In this document: positions 4,519-18,340 of the stretch, in pieces | Position numbering within the stretch: the first letter of the stretch is position 1 | Layout of the letters: each line of letters begins with the position of its first letter | NCBI GenBank assembly: GCA_947625245.1 | Contig: CANQNO010000012.1 | Span: forward strand, 1 to 48,630 | Length of the DNA stretch: 48,630 nt | Direction of reading: 5' to 3' | Origin: an uncultured Clostridia bacterium | GTDB taxonomy: Bacteria; Bacillota; Clostridia; Christensenellales; Borkfalkiaceae | The notes under the pieces: generated by a model | What the model saw: only the letters and a program-made list of their open reading frames with translations | What the model was told of the DNA's origin: nothing | The model's database searches: none | Position numbers and translations under genes: made by a program

Positions 4519-5286
4519 ATGACAGACATTAAAAAGTATGTGGCAGAGTTTATAGGAACTTGTGTGCTTGTAACGGTCGCTTGCGGCGTTGCGGTAGTCA
4601 CGGGTTGCAGCGTTGCAAATCCCGCGGCGTATCTTATGACGGCGCTTGCCTTCGGGCTTGTTATCGTTGCTATGGCGTATTCTATAGGGAACGTTTCGGG
4701 TTGCCATATCAACCCCGCGGTATCTTTGGCTATGCTAATAAGCAAAAAAATGAACGTGAAAGATTTCGTTGGTTACGTTATCGCACAAATTCTCGGCGCA
4801 ATAGCGGGGGCGGTTCTCGTGGGACTTCTTTGCGGTTCGTTCGTAAGCGATTCCGCCAATTTCGGACAGTTCGGTCAGAACTTTGCGCAACCCGCGCTTA
4901 CAACGGCTTACGGCGAAGGCGGTTCTTTGGCGGTTGCTCTCGTTGTTGAAATAGTTTTGACTTTCATCTTCGTGTTTGCTATTCTCGGCGTTACTTCAAA
5001 AACCGAAAACAAAGCCGTGACCGGCATAGTGATAGGTCTTTCCCTTACGCTCGTTCACCTTATAGGCATAGGACTTACGGGTACGTCGGTAAATCCCGCG
5101 CGTTCGATAGGTCCCGCGTTGATGGCATTGGTTAAAAACGGAAATACGGAAGCTTTAAAGCAGATTTGGATATTCATTGTAGGCCCTATGGCGGGCGGCG
5201 CGCTTGCCGCTGTCGTTTATAACCTTTTGGACGGCAAGAAGAAAGAAAAAACTCCCGAAAATCTCAACGGGCAGGACAATAAATAA
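4519..5286 (+). CDS. aqpZ: aquaporin (MIP family), water-channel type
   Basis: This 255-residue membrane channel moves water across the cytoplasmic membrane. Both signature NPA motifs are present (65-67 and 192-194), each in a half-helix after a glycine-rich stretch, with the usual six membrane segments. The selectivity-filter residues read F45, H180, T189 and R195, which is the AqpZ-type water filter rather than the glycerol-facilitator type. The charged C-terminal tail is cytoplasmic. It is a single gene between its own promoter and a terminator. Confidence in the aquaporin rather than glycerol call is good because of H180. Confidence 0.92.
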   Translation: MTDIKKYVAEFIGTCVLVTVACGVAVVTGCSVANPAAYLMTALAFGLVIVAMAYSIGNVSGCHINPAVSLAMLISKKMNVKDFVGYVIAQILGAIAGAVLVGLLCGSFVSDSANFGQFGQNFAQPALTTAYGEGGSLAVALVVEIVLTFIFVFAILGVTSKTENKAVTGIVIGLSLTLVHLIGIGLTGTSVNPARSIGPALMALVKNGNTEALKQIWIFIVGPMAGGALAAVVYNLLDGKKKEKTPENLNGQDNK

Positions 5287-5365: not shown

Positions 5366-6268
5366 ATGGGTTTGTCCTTTTTGCCCGACGAAATAAACGC
5401 TGCGCTTTCGCATCTCAACGCCAACGCCTTGACTGAAATCCGGTTAAGGCAGGGCAAGCCCGTTACTGTTGCTTACGGGGAAAAATATTGCTATCTGAGC
5501 ATGTTCGGATTGACCGAAAGGAGAGAAAACGCAATTGTTTGCGGAGAAATCGCCCCGATCGTCAATTCGGCGACGGGCGGAAGCGTATACAGTTATGCCG
5601 AGCAGATCCGCGGCGGGTTTATAACCTGCGGGCACGGGATAAGGATAGGGCTTGCGGGCGAATACGTCACTTCGGGCGAAAACGTAAATACGATAGCGGG
5701 GTTTACTTCCCTGAATATAAGAATTCCGCACGACGTAAAGGGGTGTTCGGCTTATATATGCAAAAACCTGCTTGAAAATTCTTTGAAAAACATACTTATT
5801 TTTTCAAAACCGGGGCTGGGCAAAACGACGCAGCTGAGGGATATGGCAAGATTTTTGAGCGGAAAACGCCTTAACGTCCTTGTTTTCGACGAACGGAACG
5901 AAATTTCCGCCACGGACGGGTTTGGCAACGGTTTCGATTTGGGCGACAATGTGGACATAATCCGCTCGGGAAACAAACTCAAAGCTTTCGAAAGTGCAAT
6001 AAGGTCTATGCGACCCGACGTAATCGTCACCGACGAACTGTACGGCAAAGCCGATTTCGAGGCGGTAAAATACGCCGCCGACTGCGGGCTATGCGTTATA
6101 GCGTCAACCCATATAACCGACGGGGAAAGCCTTAAACGCCTGCCTTTCGAATATTTCGTCGAATTGAAATCAATTTCTGGACAGCCTGTAATTTATGATA
6201 AAAATTTTGTTGCTGTTTGCGGTTGCGGCGCTGACGACTTCGATAGGCGTGTTTCTGTCGGCGGGTAA
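5366..6268 (+). CDS. spoIIIAA: stage III sporulation protein AA (ATPase)
   Basis: SpoIIIAA is the cytoplasmic secretion-type ATPase of the SpoIIIA-SpoIIQ channel that links mother cell and forespore after engulfment. The 300-residue product has the family's N-terminal EIRLR segment (24-28), a Walker A loop KPGLGKTT (148-155) and Walker B with VFDERNE (173-179). The first glycine of the Walker A motif is serine (S147), a small deviation. ATG 5366 is used; no Shine-Dalgarno sequence is visible. The last 74 nt overlap spoIIIAB in another frame. It heads the eight-gene operon that runs to 9664. Confidence 0.93.
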   Translation: MGLSFLPDEINAALSHLNANALTEIRLRQGKPVTVAYGEKYCYLSMFGLTERRENAIVCGEIAPIVNSATGGSVYSYAEQIRGGFITCGHGIRIGLAGEYVTSGENVNTIAGFTSLNIRIPHDVKGCSAYICKNLLENSLKNILIFSKPGLGKTTQLRDMARFLSGKRLNVLVFDERNEISATDGFGNGFDLGDNVDIIRSGNKLKAFESAIRSMRPDVIVTDELYGKADFEAVKYAADCGLCVIASTHITDGESLKRLPFEYFVELKSISGQPVIYDKNFVAVCGCGADDFDRRVSVGG

Positions 6269-6620
6269 AAAGCGGCGCATGCAGATATTTTCGGAATTGT
6301 ACGAATTTAACGAACAACTTCTGCTCAATATGAAGTTTTCGCGCAAAACTCTCGATAAAGTAGCCGAAAATTTTAAATTTATCCCCGAACTTCTGAAAGG
6401 CGGAAAGCTTTTGGACGGAAAGGACGGCGAAACGCTTTCGGACTATTTTTCAAACCTCGGTAAAACGGACGCGCTTTCACAGATAGATTATCTCAACTCA
6501 AAGGGAGCGGAGCTTAAAAAACTGAAAGACGAAAGTTTTGCGGATTACAAAAAATACAGCTCGCTGTATGTAAAAATATTTTTTTTGATAGGCGTTCTTG
6601 CGGCGGTTCTGTTGGCGTAA
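6195..6620 (+). CDS. spoIIIAB: stage III sporulation protein AB
   Basis: The 141-residue product has an N-terminal membrane segment (residues 2-22), a cytoplasmic helical middle with the usual FSELYEFNEQLLLNMKF-type stretch, and a C-terminal membrane segment (about 121-140) after KKYSSLYVK. That matches SpoIIIAB, a membrane component of the feeding-tube channel. It starts 74 nt inside spoIIIAA, an unusually long overlap. The N-terminal membrane anchor needs this start, so the overlap looks real. It is slightly shorter than the family's usual ~170 residues. Confidence 0.9.
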   Translation: MIKILLLFAVAALTTSIGVFLSAGKKRRMQIFSELYEFNEQLLLNMKFSRKTLDKVAENFKFIPELLKGGKLLDGKDGETLSDYFSNLGKTDALSQIDYLNSKGAELKKLKDESFADYKKYSSLYVKIFFLIGVLAAVLLA

Positions 6621-6623
6621 TAA

Positions 6624-6821
6624 ATGGATATAAGTATAATTTTCAAAATTGCCGCAGTAGGCATAATAGTAACCATAATCTGTCAGGTGCTTAAAAAATC
6701 CGACCGTGACGACATAGCCACGATAGTAAGCCTTGTGGGGCTTATAATTGTGCTTACGGTCGTGATTTCAATGATAGCAGATTTATTTTCGCAGATACGG
6801 CAATTATTCGATTTGTTCTGA
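6624..6821 (+). CDS. spoIIIAC: stage III sporulation protein AC
   Basis: The 65-residue, very hydrophobic protein has two membrane segments and the family-typical loop KKSDRDDIATIVSLVG between them. SpoIIIAC is a small membrane subunit of the mother-cell side of the SpoIIIA complex. It starts 3 nt after spoIIIAB, and its stop overlaps the first base of spoIIIAD. Length is as expected. Confidence 0.93.
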   Translation: MDISIIFKIAAVGIIVTIICQVLKKSDRDDIATIVSLVGLIIVLTVVISMIADLFSQIRQLFDLF

Positions 6822-7213
6822 TGTTCGTTTTCAGATTGTGTTGCATTGCGGCTATAACGGCGGCATGCGCCTTGATTTTAAAAAGCCACAAATCCGAACT
6901 CGTGCCGCTGTGCCTCACCGCGGGCGGGATAATAATGTTTTTGTTTGCTTTCGATTACCTTTCGGCAAGCGTACGGTTTTTAAAGAGCTTTTCCGAAACG
7001 ACGGGAGTGGACAATGAAATTATCCGCGTCATCTTCAAAATTTTGGGGATAGGATTTTTGATTGAGCTTACGGCAAGCTCTGTAAAAGAACTCGGGTTTG
7101 AAAGCATAGCGGACAAGCTTATATTATGCGGAAAAATTGTTATATTTGTGGCGGCGATACCCGTATTGTCGGCTACATACAAAATAATTCTCGGTTTAAT
7201 AAATCTCGCTTAA
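6821..7213 (+). CDS. spoIIIAD: stage III sporulation protein AD
   Basis: The 130-residue protein has four hydrophobic segments and the characteristic central sequence around VIFKILGIGFLIE (about 70-82), followed by KELGFESIADKL. It is a membrane component of the SpoIIIA channel. Its start shares a base with the spoIIIAC stop, and its last 88 nt overlap the longest frame of spoIIIAE. Confidence 0.93.
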   Translation: MFVFRLCCIAAITAACALILKSHKSELVPLCLTAGGIIMFLFAFDYLSASVRFLKSFSETTGVDNEIIRVIFKILGIGFLIELTASSVKELGFESIADKLILCGKIVIFVAAIPVLSATYKIILGLINLA

Positions 7214-8391
7214 AGCTGCTGTTTGCGGTATTTATAATATTTGTGCTGATCGCCGTTTTGCCGCTCTGTTTCAATAACAGGGTGTGCGCGGAGGGCGATA
7301 AGCAGGCTGAGCTGAACGAAAATATAGGAAACCTTTTGGACGGGCTGGACTTGTCGGCGTTGCAGGAATATCTCGACAGCCATGGCGACAGCTATCTGTC
7401 GGGATTCGGCAGCGACGCGCGGGGAATAGTCGAATATCTTATACACGGCAATCTCGGAACGGATTACGGAAGTTATTTAAACGAGTTGGGCGGGGTGATA
7501 TTCGAAAAGGTAATAGAACTTATTCCCGCGTTCGCAACGGTAACGGCAGTCGCGCTGCTGTGCGCGGTGGTCACCGCCGCCGAAGGCGGTATTCTGTTAA
7601 AATCCACTTCCAAAATAGTAAAACTGACCTGTTATTCGTTTATTATACTTATTTTGTCGTCAATGCTTACGGGAATAGTTACGGAGTGTATTTCCTGCAT
7701 CAACGGCGTACGCAAGCAGATAGAAATAATAACCCCTATACTTTCCACACTTACTGTTCTGACGGGCGGAACGGGTTCGGCGGCTATCTACAGCCCGTCC
7801 GCGGTATTTTTGACGGGCGGGGCGGTGGAGCTTATTGCGGGGTTTGTGTTCCCCGCGACGGTAGCGGTGGCGGTGCTCGACTTTATGTCGGGGCTTAGCC
7901 CGGGGATTTCCTTTTCGGGCGCGGGCGCGCTTATAAAGAGTGTGATGAAATGGGCGTTAGGCATTACCGTAACCGTGTTCGGCATTTTTGTCACCGTCCA
8001 AAGTTCGGCGGCTTCGCTCTTCGACGGCATACTCTTTAAAGCCACTAAGTACGTTGTGGGCAATTCGGTGCCCATTGTCGGCAATTTTTTGTCGGGCGGA
8101 TTCGATATGTTGACTTCGGCGGGGCTGCTTATCAAAAGTTCGGTCGGGCTGTGCGGCATTATCCTGCTCATAGGCGAAGTAATAGGGCCGGTGGTTATGC
8201 TCGCTTCCTTTTCCATAATGTTAAAAATAGTGGGAGCGGTCGTGCAGCCGTTGGGCGAAAATGCCGTTTACGGCTTGCTTTCCGGTTTGTCAAAGGATAC
8301 GGAATTTTTTACGGCAGGGCTGTTGACGGTGTCGTTCATGTACGCGCTAATGGTTATGCTGATAATAAATTCCGCAAATGCGTTTATATAA
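7126..8391 (+). CDS. spoIIIAE: stage III sporulation protein AE (start uncertain)
   Basis: SpoIIIAE is the largest membrane subunit of the SpoIIIA channel, with a cleaved or anchor-like N-terminal segment and about seven further membrane segments. Here the hydrophobic leader is residues 29-50, followed by an exported, acidic NLLDGLDLSALQEYL region, then glycine-rich membrane helices to the end. From ATG 7126 the protein is 421 residues, slightly long for the family, and the first 28 residues overlap spoIIIAD with no ribosome-binding site. No other ATG, GTG or TTG lies between 7126 and the signal segment (next GTG at 7243 is within it), so the start cannot be settled by inspection. Confidence 0.9.
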   Translation: MRKNCYICGGDTRIVGYIQNNSRFNKSRLKLLFAVFIIFVLIAVLPLCFNNRVCAEGDKQAELNENIGNLLDGLDLSALQEYLDSHGDSYLSGFGSDARGIVEYLIHGNLGTDYGSYLNELGGVIFEKVIELIPAFATVTAVALLCAVVTAAEGGILLKSTSKIVKLTCYSFIILILSSMLTGIVTECISCINGVRKQIEIITPILSTLTVLTGGTGSAAIYSPSAVFLTGGAVELIAGFVFPATVAVAVLDFMSGLSPGISFSGAGALIKSVMKWALGITVTVFGIFVTVQSSAASLFDGILFKATKYVVGNSVPIVGNFLSGGFDMLTSAGLLIKSSVGLCGIILLIGEVIGPVVMLASFSIMLKIVGAVVQPLGENAVYGLLSGLSKDTEFFTAGLLTVSFMYALMVMLIINSANAFI

Positions 8392-8825
8392 TGAAAGCCT
8401 ATCTTATCGGCGCGGCGGGCGTGATTTTTCTTTCGGTCATCGTTTCGCTGCTTCTGCCCGAGGGAAAACTGAATAAAACCATCACCTTCGTCATGCGGCT
8501 TATCTGTATTCTCGCGCTCGTCAGTCCTGTGACTTCTGTTTTTAAATTCAATGACGCGGACAAGGCGGCGGATTTAACCGATTACGGCTATGTCTGTGAG
8601 CAATATTCCATACAGCAGAGCGCCCAATTATCCGGATTGATATCAAAAGAATTTTCCTGCGAAGCCGATTGCCGGGTGGAAGTGGTGTTCGACGACGGGG
8701 AATTCAGGGCGAACGGTGTCGAAGTCGCGCTCTTACAAAAAGATAAAAATAATATTGAAGAAATCAGGTCATATTTGAACGGGCTGGGCTATATAAATAT
8801 ATCAGTATATGCGAAAAGTACTTGA
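8391..8825 (+). CDS. spoIIIAF: stage III sporulation protein AF
   Basis: ATG 8391 shares its first base with the spoIIIAE stop, giving 144 residues. Two N-terminal membrane segments (about 3-20 and 30-48) are joined by LLPEGKLNKTITFVMRL, as in SpoIIIAF. The C-terminal half forms the ring-building soluble domain with alternating strands and helices, ending in a typical GLGYINISVYAKS strand. It overlaps spoIIIAG by 17 nt. A longer frame from 8151 only reads through spoIIIAE and was discarded. Confidence 0.9.
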   Translation: MKAYLIGAAGVIFLSVIVSLLLPEGKLNKTITFVMRLICILALVSPVTSVFKFNDADKAADLTDYGYVCEQYSIQQSAQLSGLISKEFSCEADCRVEVVFDDGEFRANGVEVALLQKDKNNIEEIRSYLNGLGYINISVYAKST

Positions 8826-9168
8826 CTTTGTGAAAGCGAACAAAAAAATGATAATCGTCATTGCGCTTTTGATCATAATTTTGGGTACGCTGTACTTTAT
8901 AAATAAGGGCTCGCAAAGCCCGACCGCGGCAATGTTTTCCACGCAGGATAAAAGTCAGACCGAACAAAAACTTATCGGCATACTCGGCAACATAGACGGA
9001 GTGGGGGATACCGACGTAATGATAAACGAAAGCGAAGGTGAAATTACGGGCGTAATCATCGTCTGCCGTGGAGCCGACAACATTATGACCCGCAGTAAAA
9101 TACTTAACGCCGTTTCCACGGCTTTAAATATAGAAAAATCGATTATTGCAATTTATTCAATGAAATAA
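8809..9168 (+). CDS. spoIIIAG: stage III sporulation protein AG (short form)
   Basis: SpoIIIAG builds a large ring in the intermembrane space between mother cell and forespore. The 119-residue protein has one N-terminal membrane anchor (residues 12-31), a short linker, and the ring-building motif domain (TEQKLIGILGNIDGVGDTDVMI, then GVIIVCRGADN and a final helix-strand). It is clearly shorter than B. subtilis SpoIIIAG, lacking most of the insert that forms the beta-triangle collar. The GVGD loop and the following VIIVCRGA strand make the assignment firm. Confidence 0.9.
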   Translation: MRKVLDFVKANKKMIIVIALLIIILGTLYFINKGSQSPTAAMFSTQDKSQTEQKLIGILGNIDGVGDTDVMINESEGEITGVIIVCRGADNIMTRSKILNAVSTALNIEKSIIAIYSMK

Positions 9169-9178
9169 GGAGAAATTT

Positions 9179-9664
9179 ATGTCTAAAAAGAAAAAAATCA
9201 TCATCATGTCATCGCTTGTGCTTTTACTTGCTTTAACCGCCGTTTTAAACGTGTTGCTTGCAACAAAAGTTACCGCTTCGGGTGAAACCGCCGTTACCAC
9301 TTCCAACTATTTTTCCACTTTCCGTTCCGAGCGCACCACGACCAGGAACGAGGAGATAATGCAGCTCGACAGCGTTATCGCCCTTTACGAAGAGGGCAGC
9401 GACAAATATAACGAAGCCGTAAGCCTCAAACTCAAAATAGTTGAGATGATGGAAGACGAACTGCTTTTGGAAACCCTTATAAAATCCCGCGGCTTTTCCG
9501 ACGCCGTCGTATCTATGGGGATGGATTCCGAAAGCGTAAACGTATTCATAAACTCCGACGAACTCGATTACAACACCGCGCTTTCGATTTACACGATATT
9601 GAAAAACGAAGTCGGCATCAAGCCGGGCAACATAATTATTTTGCCTATTTATTCGCAAGTTTGA
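9179..9664 (+). CDS. spoIIIAH: stage III sporulation protein AH
   Basis: SpoIIIAH is the mother-cell membrane partner of forespore SpoIIQ. The 161-residue product has a basic start, one membrane segment (about 8-28), a Ser/Thr-rich exported linker, a helix with the family-typical NEEIMQLDSVI segment, and the C-terminal YscJ/FliF-like ring-building domain (SVNVFINSDEL to the end). A good AAGGAG site precedes the ATG. It closes the spoIIIA operon; accB/accC, which often follow in Firmicutes, are absent here. Confidence 0.92.
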   Translation: MSKKKKIIIMSSLVLLLALTAVLNVLLATKVTASGETAVTTSNYFSTFRSERTTTRNEEIMQLDSVIALYEEGSDKYNEAVSLKLKIVEMMEDELLLETLIKSRGFSDAVVSMGMDSESVNVFINSDELDYNTALSIYTILKNEVGIKPGNIIILPIYSQV

Positions 9665-11353: not shown

Positions 11354-12235
11354 TTGTCACTTTTCACGGAAAAATTCGACGGATATGCGTCACGTTTTAT
11401 CGGAATACTCGAAGACTTTTGCGCGACGTTGGATAAATGCGAGCCCGAAATTCTTTCAAAGAGCCTGCAATACAGCCTTAAAATAGGCGGTAAAAGAATA
11501 AGACCCGTTCTTATGTACACTTTTGCCGACCTTTTGAACGTGGAAAAGGAGAAGGTAGATAATTTTGCGCTTGCGCTCGAAATGATCCATACTTATTCGC
11601 TGATCCACGACGATATGCCCGAAATGGACAATGACGATTTCCGCCGCGGCAAGCCCTCCAATCACAAGGTATTCGGTGCGGCGAACGCGCTGCTTGCGGG
11701 CGACGGGCTGTTGAATACGGCGTATTCGGTGCTTTTCGACGAGTGCCGCAAAGGGGTCGAGTACATTTCCGCGGCAAGTTTCATATGCGATTGCGCAGGC
11801 ATTTACGGCATGATTGCGGGGCAGTCGGCAGATCTCCTTCATGAACATGACGAAAACTGTTCGGAAAAAGATTTGGGCTTTATTTACGAGAACAAGACGG
11901 CAAAGCTAATAACCGCGCCTATCGTTGTGCCCGCAATCCTTTCGGGCAGCAAATATTATTCCGAACTCAATCTTTTGGGCTATTATTTAGGACTTTTGTT
12001 CCAGATTACCGACGATATCCTCGACGTGGAAGGGGATTTCAAATTGCTCGGCAAGAGCATCGGCAAGGATAAAGAGGCGGGCAAGTGCACCGCGGTTGCC
12101 GTTTTCGGCTTGCACGAGGCAAAGCTCCGAGCGGATATTCTCACCGAAAGGTGTTTAAAAATTACCGAAGGTCTTGAAGGAGACGTCTCCTTTATAAAGG
12201 ACCTGATAACTTTCGTGCGGACGAGAAGCGATTAA
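11354..12235 (+). CDS. ispA: polyprenyl synthetase, farnesyl/geranyl diphosphate synthase type
   Basis: IspA condenses isopentenyl diphosphate with allylic diphosphates to make farnesyl diphosphate for undecaprenyl and quinone lipids. The 293-residue sequence has the first Asp-rich motif DDMPEMDNDD with the following RRGKPSNHKVFG, the KTAKLI segment, and the second Asp-rich motif DDILD with GKSIGKD after it. The start is TTG 11354, 8 nt after AGGAG that overlaps the end of folD. The spaced DDxxxxD form of the first motif is the bacterial FPP synthase type. It precedes the OLE RNA, as in other OLE-bearing genomes. Confidence 0.93.
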   Translation: MSLFTEKFDGYASRFIGILEDFCATLDKCEPEILSKSLQYSLKIGGKRIRPVLMYTFADLLNVEKEKVDNFALALEMIHTYSLIHDDMPEMDNDDFRRGKPSNHKVFGAANALLAGDGLLNTAYSVLFDECRKGVEYISAASFICDCAGIYGMIAGQSADLLHEHDENCSEKDLGFIYENKTAKLITAPIVVPAILSGSKYYSELNLLGYYLGLLFQITDDILDVEGDFKLLGKSIGKDKEAGKCTAVAVFGLHEAKLRADILTERCLKITEGLEGDVSFIKDLITFVRTRSD

Positions 12236-12241
12236 ATTTTG

Positions 12242-12270
12242 TTGACTTTTACCGCATATTATGTTATACT
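12242..12270 (+). promoter_or_regulatory. sigma-A promoter of the OLE RNA
   Basis: TTGACT (12242-12247), 17 nt, TATACT (12265-12270). The predicted start near 12277-12280 falls directly before the closing stem of the RNA. It starts 7 nt after the ispA stop. Confidence 0.75.
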
Positions 12271-12281
12271 TTATCAAACCG

Positions 12282-12830
12282 ATATAGTGGTGCAGTATTC
12301 TAGTCAATCTTTATTGATACGAAGGCGGGGGTAAAATACCGTTAAAGGGCATATCGATGAAGTTTCTGGTGTTTGCTTGCTTTGCCAAAAGTGGGTGAAT
12401 GCTGGGAGTAAAGGAGTATGGGAGCTAGGTAACGGCATACCGCAGCCAACCCCATTCTCCGTGGAGGTCGGTAAATCTTATTTTTACCGATATAAACCTG
12501 CTGTCAGGCGAAAGCTTGGTACAGAGTAGCCTGCCTTGAGTGAAAACAGCGGATAACAGAACACGGCAACGTCGTTTGGCCAGACGCCGTACGCCTATTG
12601 CTGTTTGAAATTGTCTTTGCAAAAGAGGATAAGCTCATTAAAGATTGTCAAGGAAAGCTTCTAGACTGATTATATTAGAGATTACGGTGTGGACTAAGTG
12701 GCGATTCGGTTATGCGTTTATGCGTTCTGGCTCGTAAAAGGAAACTGCTTCTTCGGCGACGGGGAGTGAGCCTTGAGGGAAATCCTACCGAACCTAAGCC
12801 GCAAAGTTTATTTAATATAGACCACTATAT
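12282..12830 (+). ncRNA. ole: OLE RNA (ornate large extremophilic RNA)
   Basis: A ~549-nt stretch without a credible gene lies between ispA and oapA, exactly the known OLE location. Its ends pair: atatagtggt at 12282-12291 with accactatat at 12821-12830. Further stems are visible: cagtattc (12293) with gaatgctg (12397), aacagc (12545) with gctgtt (12600) enclosing acggc/gccgt, ttcggt (12705) with accgaa (12787), and ggctc (12729) with gagcc (12768). OLE RNAs form a membrane-bound complex with OapA and other proteins, and in Alkalihalobacillus halodurans they are needed for tolerance of cold, alcohols and magnesium. The identification rests on context, size, structure and the adjacent oapA. 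RNase P RNA, 6S RNA and tmRNA were considered and do not fit. Confidence 0.87.
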
Positions 12831-12840
12831 TGTTTGTTTC

Positions 12841-12871
12841 TTTACGCACATGACCTGTGCGTAAAATTTTT
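12841..12871 (+). terminator. hairpin with T-run between OLE RNA and oapA
   Basis: A perfect 10-bp stem (tttacgcaca at 12841-12850 with tgtgcgtaaa at 12856-12865) and a 5-nt loop are followed by one A and five Ts. It would end OLE RNA 10 nt after its closing stem, with partial read-through into oapA. Confidence 0.55.
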
Positions 12872-12881
12872 AAACAGGAAT

Positions 12882-13514
12882 ATGGACAATAATCGACAAA
12901 ATACTGACGGGGTCCCGGACGCGGAAAAGCAAAAAAAGCCCAAACACGGCGAAGAGCGGCAGAACTCCAAACGCAAAAAACTCCCGCAATGGCTTGTATG
13001 GGGATCGATCGTCCTTTTAATGTCGTTCGGGCTAACGGTCGTTTTCAGTTTTTTGACCGAACTCGTGATCGACGAAAACAGCAGTGCGGCGCTTTGCGTA
13101 ACTGTGTTATTGGTGCTTTTGGCGCTGAATATCTTTTGCGATATGCTGGCAAACGCAATAATTTCGTGCAAGCCCGAGTGCTTCCATGCCATGGCGTCGA
13201 ATAAAATAAGGGGAGCAAAGCGCGCCGTGACTTTTTGCCGCAACGCAAGCAGGCTCGGCAGCGTATTTGCCGACGTAATAGGCGATATTTGCGGAATTGT
13301 AAGCGGCGCCGCGGGCGCCGCGCTTGCTACGATAATCGCGCTGACGGGCAGCGACACTTTAAAACTAATCGCAGCCATTACGGTTAGCGCCGTGATAGGC
13401 GCGCTGACAGTAGGCGGCAAGGCATTTTTAAAGCATTTTGCCATTAAATATAACAGGCAAATAGTGTTTGCGTTTGCAAAATTCACAACCTTTTTCAAAA
13501 AAGAGAAAAAATGA
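12882..13514 (+). CDS. oapA: OLE RNA-associated membrane protein OapA
   Basis: OapA is the integral membrane protein that binds OLE RNA and holds the ribonucleoprotein at the cytoplasmic membrane. From ATG 12882 (AGGAA 3 nt upstream) the product is 210 residues; the frame extends to 12834 but that start lies over the OLE terminator. A basic, lysine-rich N-terminus (19-34) suits RNA contact. Membrane segments are predicted near 36-58, 68-90, 136-157 and 162-178. The conserved core ISCKPECFHAMASNKIRGAK and the DxxxD motif (D131, D135), known to be essential in the family, are present. It overlaps tlyA by 4 nt; dxs, often next, is absent. Confidence 0.88.
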   Translation: MDNNRQNTDGVPDAEKQKKPKHGEERQNSKRKKLPQWLVWGSIVLLMSFGLTVVFSFLTELVIDENSSAALCVTVLLVLLALNIFCDMLANAIISCKPECFHAMASNKIRGAKRAVTFCRNASRLGSVFADVIGDICGIVSGAAGAALATIIALTGSDTLKLIAAITVSAVIGALTVGGKAFLKHFAIKYNRQIVFAFAKFTTFFKKEKK

Positions 13515-14266
13515 GAATAGACAAATTCCTCGCCTCTAAATACGGCTCGCGCACAAAAGCGGCGCGCGCGGTGGAAGAAGGGCTTGTCAAAGTCAACGGA
13601 AAAGTCGTCAGTCCATCGTACGAAGTGCGTGAGAACGACGGCTTTGATTTTATTTCCGGGGAAATAAATTTCGTGTCGCAGGGCGGCTTTAAGCTTAATA
13701 AAGCCCTCAATGAGTTCGGGTTTTCCGTACAAGGCATGGTTTGTGCGGATATAGGTGCAAGCACGGGCGGCTTTACCGACTGTCTGTTTAAATCGGGTGC
13801 GCAGAAAGTGTATTGCGTTGACGTGGGCGAGAGCCAGCTTGACGAAAGCCTTAAAAGCAAAAATATAGTCATTTACGACAACTTCAACGCGCGCAATCTG
13901 GCGCAAGATATGTTTTTTGAGCCTTTGGATCTTGCCGTTGTAGACGTAAGTTTTATTTCGCTTACATACATACTCGGAAAAGTTTCCGAAGTTCTTCAAA
14001 AAGGCAAAAAAGTAATTGCGCTCATAAAGCCGCAATTTGAGTGCGAAAGCCGCAAAGTGGGAAAGAACGGGGTAGTGCGCGACGAAAAAACACGTATATC
14101 CATAATTGAAAAAATATACGTTTTTGCGTTAAGCGTGGGTCTTGCGCCTGAAAAACTGACAACCGCGCCCGAAGTTAAAGGCAAAAACACCGAATATTTG
14201 CTTCTTATGGAAAAGGGCGGCGTACCCGAAGCGCTTGAAGATTTAATAAAAATAATAAAAAAATAA
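13511..14266 (+). CDS. tlyA: TlyA family rRNA 2'-O-methyltransferase
   Basis: TlyA-type enzymes methylate ribose of rRNA cytidines (known for M. tuberculosis 16S C1409/23S C1920) using S-adenosylmethionine; Firmicutes orthologues are called YqxC. The 251-residue protein has an S4 RNA-binding domain at 1-60 and an FtsJ-like methyltransferase domain with DIGASTGGFTD (SAM loop, ~80-90), VDVG, VVDVSFISL and the ALIKPQFE strand. The start overlaps the oapA stop as ATGA, giving translational coupling. The older name 'hemolysin A' is not supported by function. Confidence 0.93.
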   Translation: MRIDKFLASKYGSRTKAARAVEEGLVKVNGKVVSPSYEVRENDGFDFISGEINFVSQGGFKLNKALNEFGFSVQGMVCADIGASTGGFTDCLFKSGAQKVYCVDVGESQLDESLKSKNIVIYDNFNARNLAQDMFFEPLDLAVVDVSFISLTYILGKVSEVLQKGKKVIALIKPQFECESRKVGKNGVVRDEKTRISIIEKIYVFALSVGLAPEKLTTAPEVKGKNTEYLLLMEKGGVPEALEDLIKIIKK

Positions 14267-14318: not shown

Positions 14319-15131
14319 ATGAAAGCGGGAATATTTTATAACGCCAATTATAAAGATGCCAACCGCGAAAACATAAGAAGCATTTATTCGGCTTTCGGGG
14401 GGGAAGGGAACGACTGCAAAACGGTCTCTTCGCCTGAGGAGCTCGACGGGCTCGACGTGTTGTTTGTGCTGGGAGGAGACGGTACTATACTTACGGTCGC
14501 CGCGGATTGCGGCGTCCGCGGCGTTAAGATAATAGGCGTGAATTACGGTCATATGGGTTTTTTGACCGAATTCGGTCCCGACGAGCTGGATAAAGCAGTA
14601 AAACTTGTTGCCGGCGGCGGATTTGCCGTGGAAAAGCGCAGTATGCTTAAAATCGTCTGTCAAGGTAAAGAATACTATGCTTTGAACGATTTGGTAATAC
14701 AGCGGAGCACGAGCGGGGCGCACTTTTCCAATACCGTAAACCTGCATGCCGAAATCGACGGGGTAACGGTAGACAACTTCTCTGCGGACGGGGTAATAGT
14801 CAGCACACCTACGGGGTCTACGGCGTATTCGCTTTCCGCGGGCGGTCCGGTGATTGCACCGGAGCTCGAAGCTTTTATTTTAACGCCCGTGTGCGCGCAC
14901 TCGCTTCATTCAAAGCCGGTTGTGTTCAGCGACAGATCCGTACTTACCGTTAAGCCCGTAAACTGCAAAACGCCGCTTGTCATCGCCGTCGACGGCAAAA
15001 TTATCGGCAAAATTCACTCTACGGATACCGTAAAGGTTACGAAAGCCGACAAGGCGGTGGAATTTATCACTTCGGGCGATAAAAACTTTTTTAACAGACT
15101 TTTGATTAAATTAAATATTTGGGGTAAATGA
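14319..15131 (+). CDS. nadK: NAD kinase
   Basis: NadK phosphorylates NAD to NADP with ATP or polyphosphate. The 270-residue protein has the GGDGT loop with its catalytic Asp (about residues 52-56), the NYGHMGFLTE segment, NDLVIQRS, and the STPTGSTAYSLSAGGP NAD-binding region. There is no Shine-Dalgarno sequence before ATG 14319, and a promoter ends 7 nt upstream, which suggests a leaderless message in addition to any read-through from tlyA. The stop overlaps argR as ATGA. Confidence 0.95.
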   Translation: MKAGIFYNANYKDANRENIRSIYSAFGGEGNDCKTVSSPEELDGLDVLFVLGGDGTILTVAADCGVRGVKIIGVNYGHMGFLTEFGPDELDKAVKLVAGGGFAVEKRSMLKIVCQGKEYYALNDLVIQRSTSGAHFSNTVNLHAEIDGVTVDNFSADGVIVSTPTGSTAYSLSAGGPVIAPELEAFILTPVCAHSLHSKPVVFSDRSVLTVKPVNCKTPLVIAVDGKIIGKIHSTDTVKVTKADKAVEFITSGDKNFFNRLLIKLNIWGK

Positions 15132-15583
15132 TGCAAAGAACTTTAAGACAGCAAAAAATTCTTGAGATTATTTCTAATAAAGAAATCGACACGCAGGAAG
15201 AATTGTGCGAAGAACTCAACAAAATCAATTTCAACGTTACGCAGGCTACGATTTCCCGCGACGTAAAGGACTTAAAGCTCTATAAAGTTGCGGGTATGCA
15301 AAAAAAATACAGGTACGCAAGTCTGGAAAATTATGTCGATACGGTCACTGACCGCATGACTAACCTGTTCAAGGGCTGCGTACTGTCGGTCAATTATGCC
15401 AAAAACCTTATAATAGTAAAGACGATGCGCGGAAACGGCGCAACCGTCGGCGTTTTTGTGGATTCGTTGCAGATAAGCGAAATAATAGGTTGCGTCGCAG
15501 GCGACGATACCCTTCTTATAGTCGTTGATACTGACGAACACGCATTAAAAGTTTTGGATATTTTAAAAGAGTACCTCGGCTGA
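15128..15583 (+). CDS. argR: arginine repressor ArgR/AhrC
   Basis: ArgR controls arginine synthesis and breakdown with arginine as co-repressor; in Firmicutes it is usually found between nadK/tlyA and recN, as here. The 151-residue protein has an N-terminal winged helix (residues ~8-70, with VTQATISRDVKDLKLYKV) and a C-terminal hexamerisation/arginine-binding domain with GCVAGDDTLLIVV. It overlaps nadK by 4 nt and recN by 1 nt, so its level follows the operon. No arginine genes lie in the window. Confidence 0.95.
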   Translation: MMQRTLRQQKILEIISNKEIDTQEELCEELNKINFNVTQATISRDVKDLKLYKVAGMQKKYRYASLENYVDTVTDRMTNLFKGCVLSVNYAKNLIIVKTMRGNGATVGVFVDSLQISEIIGCVAGDDTLLIVVDTDEHALKVLDILKEYLG

Positions 15584-17262
15584 TGTTACAAAGACTTTAC
15601 ATAAAGAACGTCGCCCTGATTCCCGAAGCCGATATTGTATTCGACGGAGGTTTAAACGTTTTATCGGGCGAAACGGGCTCGGGGAAATCGGTTATCCTCG
15701 ATTCTATAAATTTTGTGCTGGGAAGCAAAGCCGATAAAACAATGATAAGATCCGGCGAGCGTGAGGCAATCGTGCGCGCCGAATTTTATGTTGCCCCCGA
15801 CAGCGCCGCCGCCGAAAAAACGCGCGCGCTCGACATAGATACGGACGGCGAAATTATCATAACGAGAAAATTGAATTCCGACGGCAGAAGCGCGGTAAAG
15901 CTCAACGGCAATACGGTAACTGCGGGGATGTTGAAGTCGGTAACACAGCATCTTGTCGACGTTCACGGTCAGAGCGAGCATTTTTTTCTTTTAAACGAGG
16001 AAAACCAGCTAAAAGTCATAGACGGCATCTGCGGTGAAAAAGCGGCAGAATTCAAGCGACAACTTGCAACGCTCATTTCGGAAAAACGCGGGTATTTAAG
16101 CAAAATAAAATCTCTCGGCGGCGACGAAAGCGAACGCGAGCGCAAGCTGGACCTGTTGAAATTTCAGATTGATGAAATAAGAAGCGCGGGGATTGAACCG
16201 GGCGAATTTGACAGGTTAAAGGCAAAACAGATAATTTTTGCAAACACCGAAAAAATTTTTGCGGCATTGAACGCCGTCCATGGCGCGCTGTCGGACGACG
16301 GCGGTTGCAACGACGCGGTCTCGTCGGCTCTGCATCTGATAAACGGAATTTCCGATCTGGATAAGGAATATGCGGGAATTGCCGAAAGGCTGGAAAGTCT
16401 TGCGGCGGAAGTCTCGGATATCTCCGAAACGGTTGCCGATCTTGCCGAAAATCTTACCTATGACGACAGGGAAGCGCAATTCGTCGACGAGCGGCTGGAA
16501 GTTTTAAAGACTTTGAAGAGGAAATACGGCGACAGCGAGCAAAAAATTTTGGAATTTGCAGCAGGCGCAGAAGCGGAATACGATATGCTGTCCGGCGCCG
16601 CCGACGAAATAGCAAAGGCGGAAAGCATGATTTCTGCCTGCAGCGACAAGATTTACATGGTTTGCAGGCAATTGAGCGATTTAAGACGCAAAAACGCCGA
16701 AACTTTTTGCAGCGACGTGACACGCGAGCTCGGAACTTTGAATATCCCTAACGCAAGTTTTAAAGTGGAATTCGGCGAATTCGACAGAACGACGGCTGAC
16801 CACAATTCGGCGGAAGGGTCGGACAGCCTTCGCTTTATGTTTTCGGCGAACAAAGGCGAGCCTGAAAAGCCGCTTAAAGACGTAATTTCGGGCGGTGAAA
16901 TGAGCAGGTTCATGCTTGCCGTAAAAACGCGGCTGAAAGACCTTAACGGCATTTCGACTTATGTTTTTGACGAAATCGACGCGGGGATAAGCGGTTATAC
17001 GGCTAAAACGGTTGCGGAAAAATTTAAATATATTGCCAAAAACACACAGATAATAGCCGTTTCGCACCTGCCGCAGGTCTGCGCGGCGAGCGATGCGCAG
17101 TTTTTGATATATAAGACAGAAGAAAATTCAAAAACCCTTACAAAAATAAAACGTCTGAACGACGCCGAAAAAATCGACGAAATAGTAAGACTTACGGGTA
17201 ACGTAAAGTCCGAAGCGGCAAAAATACACGCAGGCGAGCTAATAGACCAATTCAAAAATTAA
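15583..17262 (+). CDS. recN: DNA repair protein RecN
   Basis: RecN is an SMC-like ATPase acting in double-strand break repair. The 559-residue protein shows Walker A GETGSGKSVILDS (about 29-41), long coiled-coil arms in the middle (about 150-380), the ABC signature ISGGEMSRFMLA and Walker B TYVFDEIDAGISG. The start codon shares a base with the argR stop (TGATG). It is the last gene of the cluster and is followed by a strong terminator. Length is normal. Confidence 0.96.
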   Translation: MLQRLYIKNVALIPEADIVFDGGLNVLSGETGSGKSVILDSINFVLGSKADKTMIRSGEREAIVRAEFYVAPDSAAAEKTRALDIDTDGEIIITRKLNSDGRSAVKLNGNTVTAGMLKSVTQHLVDVHGQSEHFFLLNEENQLKVIDGICGEKAAEFKRQLATLISEKRGYLSKIKSLGGDESERERKLDLLKFQIDEIRSAGIEPGEFDRLKAKQIIFANTEKIFAALNAVHGALSDDGGCNDAVSSALHLINGISDLDKEYAGIAERLESLAAEVSDISETVADLAENLTYDDREAQFVDERLEVLKTLKRKYGDSEQKILEFAAGAEAEYDMLSGAADEIAKAESMISACSDKIYMVCRQLSDLRRKNAETFCSDVTRELGTLNIPNASFKVEFGEFDRTTADHNSAEGSDSLRFMFSANKGEPEKPLKDVISGGEMSRFMLAVKTRLKDLNGISTYVFDEIDAGISGYTAKTVAEKFKYIAKNTQIIAVSHLPQVCAASDAQFLIYKTEENSKTLTKIKRLNDAEKIDEIVRLTGNVKSEAAKIHAGELIDQFKN

Positions 17263-17288
17263 CCGGCGCAAAACGCCGGATTTTTTTT
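17263..17288 (+). terminator. terminator of the nusB-recN cluster
   Basis: Stem ccggcg/cgccgg with loop caaaa, then A and eight Ts. Confidence 0.85.
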
Positions 17289-17323
17289 CGCATAACTTGA
17301 TTTAAAGTGCGCACAATACTTGT

Positions 17324-18340
17324 ATGTTTTACTGCAAGAGAGCCTTTAAATTATTAATATTGATTTTTTCGATAGTCGTATGCGCGGTCACGCTTATGCC
17401 CGCCGCGGCAAGCGCCGAAGAAGCGCAGCTGTATTTGGGCGGGTTCCCTGCGGGATTTGTGTTGAACACGACTACCGTGGAAGTTATAGGCGTTTGCGAC
17501 GTGGTCACTTGCGACGGAGTGTGTTCCCCTGCGCGCGAAGCCGGCATCAAAACCGGCGACGTGATTGATAAGATAAACGGGGAAGAAGTAAATGCGGTTT
17601 CGGATATCAATAAAATTATATCGGGAGAATATAAAAAGTACGAAGTTGAAATTATCCGCGGCAACGACCGTTTAAATATTCCCATAAACCCCGTCAAAGA
17701 GGCGGCGAGCGGCGGAAAAAGGCTGGGCGTTCTTGTTAAAGACAGTATAAACGGGATAGGTACGGTTACTTATATCGACGGTGCAAACCGCAAATTTGCG
17801 TCGCTCGGTCACCCCGTAACCGATAATGGCGGCAAATACGTTGAAATCCGCGGCGGTACGCTGTACGGAAGTTTGATTTACGACGTCAAAAAAGGAGTAA
17901 GGGGTACGCCGGGCGAACTCAGGGGCGCTTTCGAGAACGGAAGCGTAATGGGAAGCGCCAAAGTCAATTGTCCTTGCGGTGTATACGGCGACCTCGATAA
18001 AAACTATGACTGTTCGGGACTTTTAAAAATTTCCAAAGCTTCTCTGGACGAAGCCGAAATGGGCACAGCGTACATTTATACGACGGTGTACGGGAAGCAG
18101 TCCGAAAAGTATAAAATCTCTATTGTCAAAATCGACAAGTCCTGCAAAGACAACAAAAACTTTGTAATAAAAGTGGACGACGAAAAACTTCTCGACAAAA
18201 CGGGAGGGATAGTTCAGGGCATGAGCGGAAGCCCCATAGTCCAGAACGGCAAACTTATAGGCGCGGTGACCCACGTATTCATCAACGATCCAGCGCGCGG
18301 ATACGGGATAGGGATAGACAAGATGCTCGGTTCATATTAA
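17324..18340 (+). CDS. spoIVB: SpoIVB signalling serine peptidase (S55)
   Basis: SpoIVB is made in the forespore, crosses the inner membrane and cleaves SpoIVFA so that SpoIVFB can activate pro-sigma-K. The 338-residue protein has an N-terminal membrane anchor (about 8-30), a PDZ domain (about 55-115, SPAREAGIKTGDVIDKING) and the S55 peptidase domain. By spacing to B. subtilis the triad would be H163 (LGHPV), D286 and S301 (GMSGSP). No Shine-Dalgarno sequence precedes ATG 17324 and no clear sigma-F/G promoter could be fixed. No spoIVFA/FB pair is in the window; a site-2 protease at 20243 is of another subtype. Confidence 0.95.
   Translation: MFYCKRAFKLLILIFSIVVCAVTLMPAAASAEEAQLYLGGFPAGFVLNTTTVEVIGVCDVVTCDGVCSPAREAGIKTGDVIDKINGEEVNAVSDINKIISGEYKKYEVEIIRGNDRLNIPINPVKEAASGGKRLGVLVKDSINGIGTVTYIDGANRKFASLGHPVTDNGGKYVEIRGGTLYGSLIYDVKKGVRGTPGELRGAFENGSVMGSAKVNCPCGVYGDLDKNYDCSGLLKISKASLDEAEMGTAYIYTTVYGKQSEKYKISIVKIDKSCKDNKNFVIKVDDEKLLDKTGGIVQGMSGSPIVQNGKLIGAVTHVFINDPARGYGIGIDKMLGSY

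Follow-up and report, generated by a model that had tools for sequence, protein, structure and literature searches.

The OLE RNA of Halalkalibacterium halodurans is described as an abundant, polycistronic RNA whose 3′ end is processed (PMC12265935; PMC11332333). It binds OapA at the membrane, and its loss leads to sensitivity to cold, alcohol and Mg2+; OLE RNAs from two Clostridium species are reported in the same sources to dimerise (PMC12265935, PMC11332333, PMC9723947, PMC10898510, PMC12054373, PMC12286853). In published structures, the P9 loop is the kissing-loop site of the dimer (PMC12265935). In H. halodurans, the P13 loop is the OapB site. The OLE papers cited here also mention a cluster of genes such as ispA, tlyA, argR, recN and a sporulation gene. 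Variant 1 OLE RNAs, known from TANB77 and other clades, belong to small gut genomes and have a shorter P9 (PMC11332333). The same paper reports a structural relationship between OapA and MpfA and an anticorrelation of OLE and MpfA across the Bacillota (PMC11332333).

The DNA analysed here is a stretch of 48,630 nucleotides (hereafter, the window) from an uncultured Clostridia bacterium of the Borkfalkiaceae, whose genome assembly comprises 1.42 Mb in 26 contigs and is 94% complete. A preliminary description, made from the letters of the window, had proposed that it contains an OLE RNA and had left the proposal to a search with the Rfam covariance model. The match to RF01071 is highly significant: it runs from 12271 to 12841 on the forward strand, covers model positions 1-616 and scores 390.3 bits (cut-off 50, E 2.9e-111). 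OLE is the sole Rfam family that reaches its gathering threshold in the window, and a search of the whole 1.42-Mb genome gave an OLE count of one. The 10-bp pairing of the RNA ends that had been proposed is also found, between ATATAGTGGT (12282-12291) and ACCACTATAT (12821-12830). The locus is confirmed as OLE/OapA, a system of known kind, and its features are listed in Table 1. It resembles that of H. halodurans in the full-length OLE match, in having oapA as the next gene downstream, and in the DxxxD motif of OapA.

Table 1. Features of the OLE/oapA locus and its neighbours (positions are those of the window).
Feature	Position	Strand	Basis or remark
ispA (polyprenyl/farnesyl diphosphate synthase), upstream neighbour	11354-12235	+	Pfam polyprenyl_synt, E 3.7e-56
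Predicted sigma-70-type promoter: TTGACT (12242-12247), 17 nt, TATACT (12265-12270)	12242-12270	+	
OLE RNA, P1 to P1 (549 nt)	12282-12830	+	RF01071 match and P1 ends
P9 loop TGGCCA, self-complementary	12577-12582	+	Sequence
Shortened P12.2/P13 segment that lacks the GGNGAC-type P13 loop of the Rfam consensus	12702-12737	+	
Terminator-like hairpin TTTACGCAC-ATGACCT-GTGCGTAAA with ATTTTT tail	12841-12871	+	Sequence, folding, conservation in the genus
oapA, OLE-associated membrane protein of 210 aa	12882-13514	+	AGGA 2 nt before ATG
DVIGD (DxxxD) motif, OapA residues 131-135	13272-13286	+	Invariant D131, G134 and D135 (27 aligned sequences)
tlyA, downstream neighbour	13511-14266	+	TIGR00478, 192 bits, above cut-off; 4-nt overlap with the end of oapA
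nadK, argR, recN, spoIVB	14319-18340	+	NCBIfam; recN above cut-off, nadK, argR and spoIVB below

P7 and P8 are shortened in the RNA of the window, and P9 is long and retains its TGGCCA loop. A six-base palindrome (TGGCCA, GGGCCC or CGGCCG) lies 5′ of P12 in all 18 loci of the genus set with enough sequence, and the same palindromes are present in 19 of 26 phylum loci. The latter derive from a phylum-wide sample in which OLE was detected in 284 of 398 genomes; the loci scanned were the 30 best-scoring of the 284, several of them from one genus. The GGNGAC loop of P13 was seen in none of 21 loci parsed by regular expression, which worked for 20 of the 50 genus loci and for G011, a genome of another genus. 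In the phylum set it appeared in 10 of 26 parsed segments (3 of the 26 visibly mis-parsed), and many others had GGNAAC. Absence of this loop does not exclude a locus from OLE membership, since the OapB site is frequently missing from variant 1 RNAs in the literature.

The preliminary description had also recognised the OapA core and a DxxxD motif in the protein encoded after the RNA. Both stand: the reading frame from 12882 encodes 210 residues, and D131 and D135 are invariant in 27 aligned sequences, together with D87, M104, G134, G138, G142, K180 and K184. DxxxD is a motif of OapA, and its residues are seen here. The predicted membrane core consists of four long helices (36-62, 69-95, 122-155 and 158-189) after a Lys/Arg-rich N-terminus and includes DVIGD. 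Profile searches matched no OapA-named model in Pfam or NCBIfam; support for OapA comes from synteny and from the conserved core. Identity of the window's OapA is 52-59% to Candidatus Coproplasma (four loci), 60% to an uncultured Christensenella sp. and at most 75% in metagenome-assembled genomes, as measured by scanning the OapA alignment against named genome contigs (80 of 93 confirmed loci kept).

The Pfam CNNM model gave 17.2 bits against OapA, under its cut-off of 28.4, and a profile comparison of OapA with MpfA was weak (hhalign E 0.0014, probability only 17%). A PDB sequence search with OapA retrieved nothing. An AlphaFold model (mean pLDDT 80.9, pTM 0.69) was then compared with PDB folds using Foldseek, and the six best of 97 matches were CNNM/CorC chains, from archaeal CorB (7m1t, 7m1u) and from the membrane domain of bacterial CorC (7cff, 7cfg). 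Their probabilities were 0.92-1.00, with E values from 0.0095 to 0.39, none below 0.001; the next match had a probability of 0.33. The modelled fold of OapA therefore resembles CNNM/CorC Mg transporters best, if weakly, in agreement with the published claim of a structural relation to MpfA. Unlike the MpfA/CorC/CNNM exporters, whose transmembrane domain it is predicted to match, OapA gave no match to CBS or CorC_HlyC and stops where its membrane core is complete; its partner is an RNA, and the two systems were not found together in any genome of the genus sample.

An own promoter for OLE had been claimed, and the TTGACT-17-TATACT pair is indeed present, with 10 of 12 consensus bases and a TG preceding the -10 box. 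It lies just upstream of P1 as stated, the gap from the end of the -10 box being 11 nt instead of 12. Such a match means little alone because promoter-like pairs are frequent (24 found versus 15.6 expected in 11 kb). Conservation supports it: a comparable pair with 17-nt spacing and 10-12 of 12 consensus bases exists in 38 of 38 genus loci, the window included, and also in G011. These loci are those, among 54 OLE/OapA genomes, in which ispA, OLE and oapA can be read on one stretch. In all of them and in G011 the pair ends 14-18 nt 5′ of GTGGTGCAG, and it starts at most 10 nt from the ispA stop codon except in G011, G116, G139, G159 and G220. In a second set of 35 loci, whose genomes overlap with the first, a pair with at least 10 of 12 bases was found in every locus versus 0.9 expected from shuffled sequences.

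The statement that oapA follows directly after OLE needs amendment. It is the next gene, but the 51 nt in between hold a hairpin of 10 bp and a T-run that had been missed. The hairpin folds with a minimum free energy of -12.6 kcal/mol (z -5.2). Its core occurs once in the whole 1.42-Mb genome, which rules out a common repeat. Among the 47 genus loci that are readable here, the stem is retained in 44 (exactly so in 38), and the loops are of 40 different sequences. The 5′ arm reads ACGCAC in 38 loci, ACGCGC in 3, ATGCAC in 2 (with GTGTGT as 3′ arm) and GCGCAC in 1; in the six non-exact stems the changes appear, from the letters, to leave G-U pairs. No such hairpin was found in G252, G254 and G263, and because these 3 of the 47 loci do without it, it is not indispensable.

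A GC-containing hairpin followed by a U-run is the signature of an intrinsic terminator, and the element is predicted to be one. At least five T are found within the next 10 bases in all 38 exact cases, and a terminator-like site follows OLE in 32 of 35 genus loci versus 0.0 in shuffles. The case rests on this conservation, since the region contains 23 terminator-like sites where 16.1 are expected. Among the best-scoring 30 phylum loci, an own promoter passes in 11 of 28 (two have no upstream sequence), and 4 of 30 have a terminator-like site that passes, figures that are not population rates because the 30 were selected by score from 284 and several share one genus; the 3′ anchor was missing in 8 of the 30, where the stretch scanned may be off. 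Many of these loci show, by eye, a ribosome-binding site immediately 3′ of OLE. Since only 4 of 30 pass, the hairpin does not look general to OLE.

Altogether, these features suggest that OLE is probably a transcription unit of its own and that oapA is expressed by read-through. RNA polymerase would start near 12277 and synthesise OLE, most polymerases would stop at 12866-12871, and a minority, together with any read-through from ispA, would continue into oapA. The outcome would be much OLE RNA and little OapA. Promoter, terminator and read-through are predictions. The arrangement would be unlike that of H. halodurans, where OLE is polycistronic and 3′-processed, in that here a terminator-like hairpin parts OLE from oapA. 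That very precedent (PMC12265935; PMC11332333) offers another explanation, in which OLE is excised from a long ispA-OLE-oapA-tlyA transcript. The promoter would then be secondary, and the hairpin would act in processing or stability by protecting the 3′ end; conservation of the stem sequence beside a freely varying loop would also fit recognition by a nuclease or a binding protein. We consider this unlikely, given the T-rich tail of all 38 exact hairpins and of two loci without OLE (G215 and G064, see below), the near-consensus promoter in 38 of 38 loci, and the scarcity of terminator-like sites in the best-scoring phylum loci. Returning to OLE as its own unit, a near-invariant stem with a drifting loop exceeds what a terminator needs, and for this reason a sequence-specific reader is raised below as a tentative idea.

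The genes around the locus are, in order, nusB, folD, ispA, OLE, oapA, tlyA, nadK, argR, recN and spoIVB. Assignments of ispA (263.8 bits against NCBIfam FPPsyn, cut-off 275) and of spoIVB at 17324 (TIGR02860, 296.9 bits) fall slightly under the respective cut-offs. The presence of ispA, tlyA, argR, recN and a sporulation gene near OLE is a likeness to the gene order of H. halodurans. Elsewhere in the window, the reading frames 196-1041 and 4519-5286 resemble, by their motifs, a GIY-YIG nuclease and an aquaporin, respectively, and a string of frames at 5366-9664 resembles the spoIIIA sporulation operon.

Three usual neighbours, xseA, xseB and dxs, had been declared missing. For xseA this agrees with our search, which found none in the 94% complete genome except a partial match of 22 bits. 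For dxs it is wrong: a full-length dxs exists elsewhere in the genome (contig C16, 527.5 bits). Matches to the dxs family occur in 93 of 93 genus genomes, 83 above cut-off, and in most OLE-bearing relatives that were read dxs lies between oapA and tlyA. A side observation concerns 13 genus genomes, including that of the window, G128, G064 and G215. Their best dxs match is one full-length gene outside the locus (C16:29549-31354 in the window's genome; also L048-L054, L059-L061, L081 and L094), and it scores without the gap that the copies at the locus show in other genomes. A link of OLE to ispA/tlyA expression, which had been suggested, is unsupported: OLE has a predicted promoter of its own and a terminator-like hairpin, dxs often parts oapA from tlyA, and two relatives keep ispA and tlyA side by side without OLE and oapA. 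The alternative offered along with it, conserved position, is the better reading, as position by descent.

OapC (L7Ae family) was not found at E 0.001 in the window's genome; 7 of 14 control genomes were positive. An OapB orthologue is present, with 28% identity to the solved OapB stretch, and lies between putative map and infA genes. OapB matches occur in 82 of 93 genus genomes, among them both OLE-bearing and OLE-free ones. As a separate observation, the median score against H. halodurans OapB was 31.05 bits in OLE/OapA genomes (n=50) and 37.4 bits in MpfA genomes (n=25), kinship being ignored in this comparison. The locus thus differs from H. halodurans in that xseA and OapC were not found, dxs has moved away, and the OapB-bound P13 loop is missing although an OapB orthologue remains. 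It is like variant 1 in its short P7 and P8, the lack of an OapB site in P13, the small gut genome and the missing OapC, and unlike it in the long P9 with TGGCCA, where variant 1 has a shorter P9, and in the presence of the OapB orthologue (PMC11332333).

Losses of this kind could mean that the locus is a decaying, unused relic in a shrinking genome, its OapC and OapB loop gone, as the 1.42-Mb size, the OapC family not found and the absent P13 loop would fit. We hold this to be very improbable. The RNA matches all 616 model positions with 390 bits, oapA is open and conserved in its core, promoter and hairpin have been kept, and variant OLE RNAs with like losses are reported from other small genomes (PMC11332333). 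On its sequence, the locus is a true OLE RNA/OapA ribonucleoprotein (RNP) locus in pared-down form.

The distribution of OLE/OapA and MpfA was examined using a CorC_HlyC match as the MpfA marker (whole proteins were read in 19 cases from 16 genomes); the oapA state of OLE-negative genus genomes was read at the locus. The window's genome (G000) has no CorC_HlyC match. RF01071 matched in 50 of 93 genus genomes, and four others (G199, G219, G235, G255) carry oapA at a contig edge, where OLE absence was rejected, which raises OLE/OapA to 54. CorC_HlyC is present in 31 genomes, both systems in none and neither in 8. For the 61 genomes with completeness of 90% or more and contamination of 5% or less, the respective numbers are 37, 20, 0 and 4. 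Fisher's test on RNA matches alone gives p 3e-15 for the genus, relatedness being ignored. In a family sample of 201 genomes, OLE is found in 20, CorC_HlyC in 124, both in 0 and neither in 57 (Fisher 8e-10); G199 counts among these 57, yet has oapA at a contig edge. Five of the eight genus genomes with neither system (G204, G209, G224, G232, G240) have no full tlyA match, so that the locus is probably unassembled in them. In G082, G212 and G213 neither system is found with the locus in hand; G212 (L084) and G213 (L096) are deep-branching genomes.

Also read were 29 regions in which ispA and tlyA are present and oapA is absent. The distance from the ispA stop codon to tlyA is 1710-1742 nt in 24 of them, the room of a dxs, which is seen there where genes are listed. 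G215 and G064 have only 50 and 58 nt, which are taken up by a TACGCAC...GTGCGTA hairpin with a T-run behind it. The hairpin has thus outlasted OLE, oapA and any dxs. This pair is nested in an OLE-positive clade and has MpfA. Read from its sequence, the hairpin in G215 and G064 is a scar of the past presence of OLE after ispA. In G213 the same hairpin core lies between ispA and dxs, with no full T-run. G090 has a longer gap between ispA and tlyA, and G212 is not cleanly readable. As G215/G064 and G213 occupy distant positions in the tree, it is probable that this site has lost OLE repeatedly.

A quick tree of seven neighbouring genes (1935 columns; 79 rows, that is 78 genus genomes and G011; placement of G174 unsure) requires 4 changes of OLE/OapA state at best, at least 3 of them forced by starred branches, and yields 3 independent pairs (sign test p 0.25-1). 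With only 3-4 changes and 3 pairs, the exclusion is not significant once relatedness is counted. Inheritance might then suffice, with a few old clade splits and no functional replacement: genomes of like state cluster strongly in the tree, neither system is matched in 57 of the 201 genomes of the family sample, so neither seems strictly needed, and the unresolved backbone of the MpfA tree does not separate the origins of the G064/G215 and main-clade proteins. We regard inheritance alone as possible, though doubtful. G064 and G215 lie inside an OLE-positive clade, show a scar where OLE and oapA were lost, and have MpfA, which sits on its own long branch; the MpfA of G174 is distant (branch 2.34); a second genus, g11, includes both the OLE genome G011 and G029 (84% complete), which has CorC_HlyC and no OLE match; and the same anticorrelation has been reported across the Bacillota (PMC11332333). 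On balance, MpfA seems to replace OLE/OapA in this genus.

Such replacement can be accommodated in a mechanism. OapA would be the membrane (CNNM) part of a Mg2+ transporter of the MpfA/CorC kind, minus the CBS and CorC domains. Two OLE RNAs would dimerise through the kept loops and hold OapA in the membrane, and OLE would supply the control that CBS/CorC domains supply in MpfA. OLE/OapA and MpfA would then be alternatives that serve one function, namely to tolerate high Mg2+ and related stresses; this would account for the lack of any examined genus genome with both. We consider probable the explanation as a whole, namely a pared-down OLE/OapA locus with its own start and stop, oapA expressed by read-through, and a job equivalent to that of MpfA.

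A bolder version is that the hairpin is a regulated attenuator whose sequence is read by an RNP or cell factor and which sets the OLE:OapA ratio, and that OLE RNP and MpfA have been exchanged one for one repeatedly in the genus. This is a tentative idea that we think is more probably wrong. If the exchange were true, a 550-nt RNA would do the work of the CBS/CorC domains of a Mg2+ exporter, and nature would have run, within this genus, an exchange experiment on OLE function.

A limited literature search on OLE RNA, Coproplasma and MpfA/OapA found no description of this locus architecture. As far as that literature shows, the additions made here are an OLE-only unit with a near-invariant hairpin, exclusion of MpfA within one genus (the published anticorrelation is Bacillota-wide) and the scars. 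Loss of OLE and oapA at a fixed site leaves a hairpin that marks their past presence, and OapA can be modelled as an MpfA-like transporter reduced to its membrane half. The genus offers close relatives for swap experiments, and the predicted arrangement would be a simple route to RNA-rich, protein-poor RNP expression.

Metagenome contigs of the genus repeatedly break in or beside OLE (L063, L073, L083, L097, L114, L116, L117 and L126, among others), and therefore OLE and the genes at the edge are under-counted in metagenome-assembled genomes. Partial matches in G184, G202, G221, G226, G228, G230, G246 and G262 were considered as OLE decay and rejected, as each of the contigs breaks off within OLE or near it. 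Three contig-edge copies (G184:C71:7722-7838, G221:C113:6389-6505 and G246:C111:66-182) have two model matches that flank about 117 nt (positions about 140-278, P5 to P8) left unmatched by the OLE model. These stretches reflect either divergence or an effect of the truncated model.
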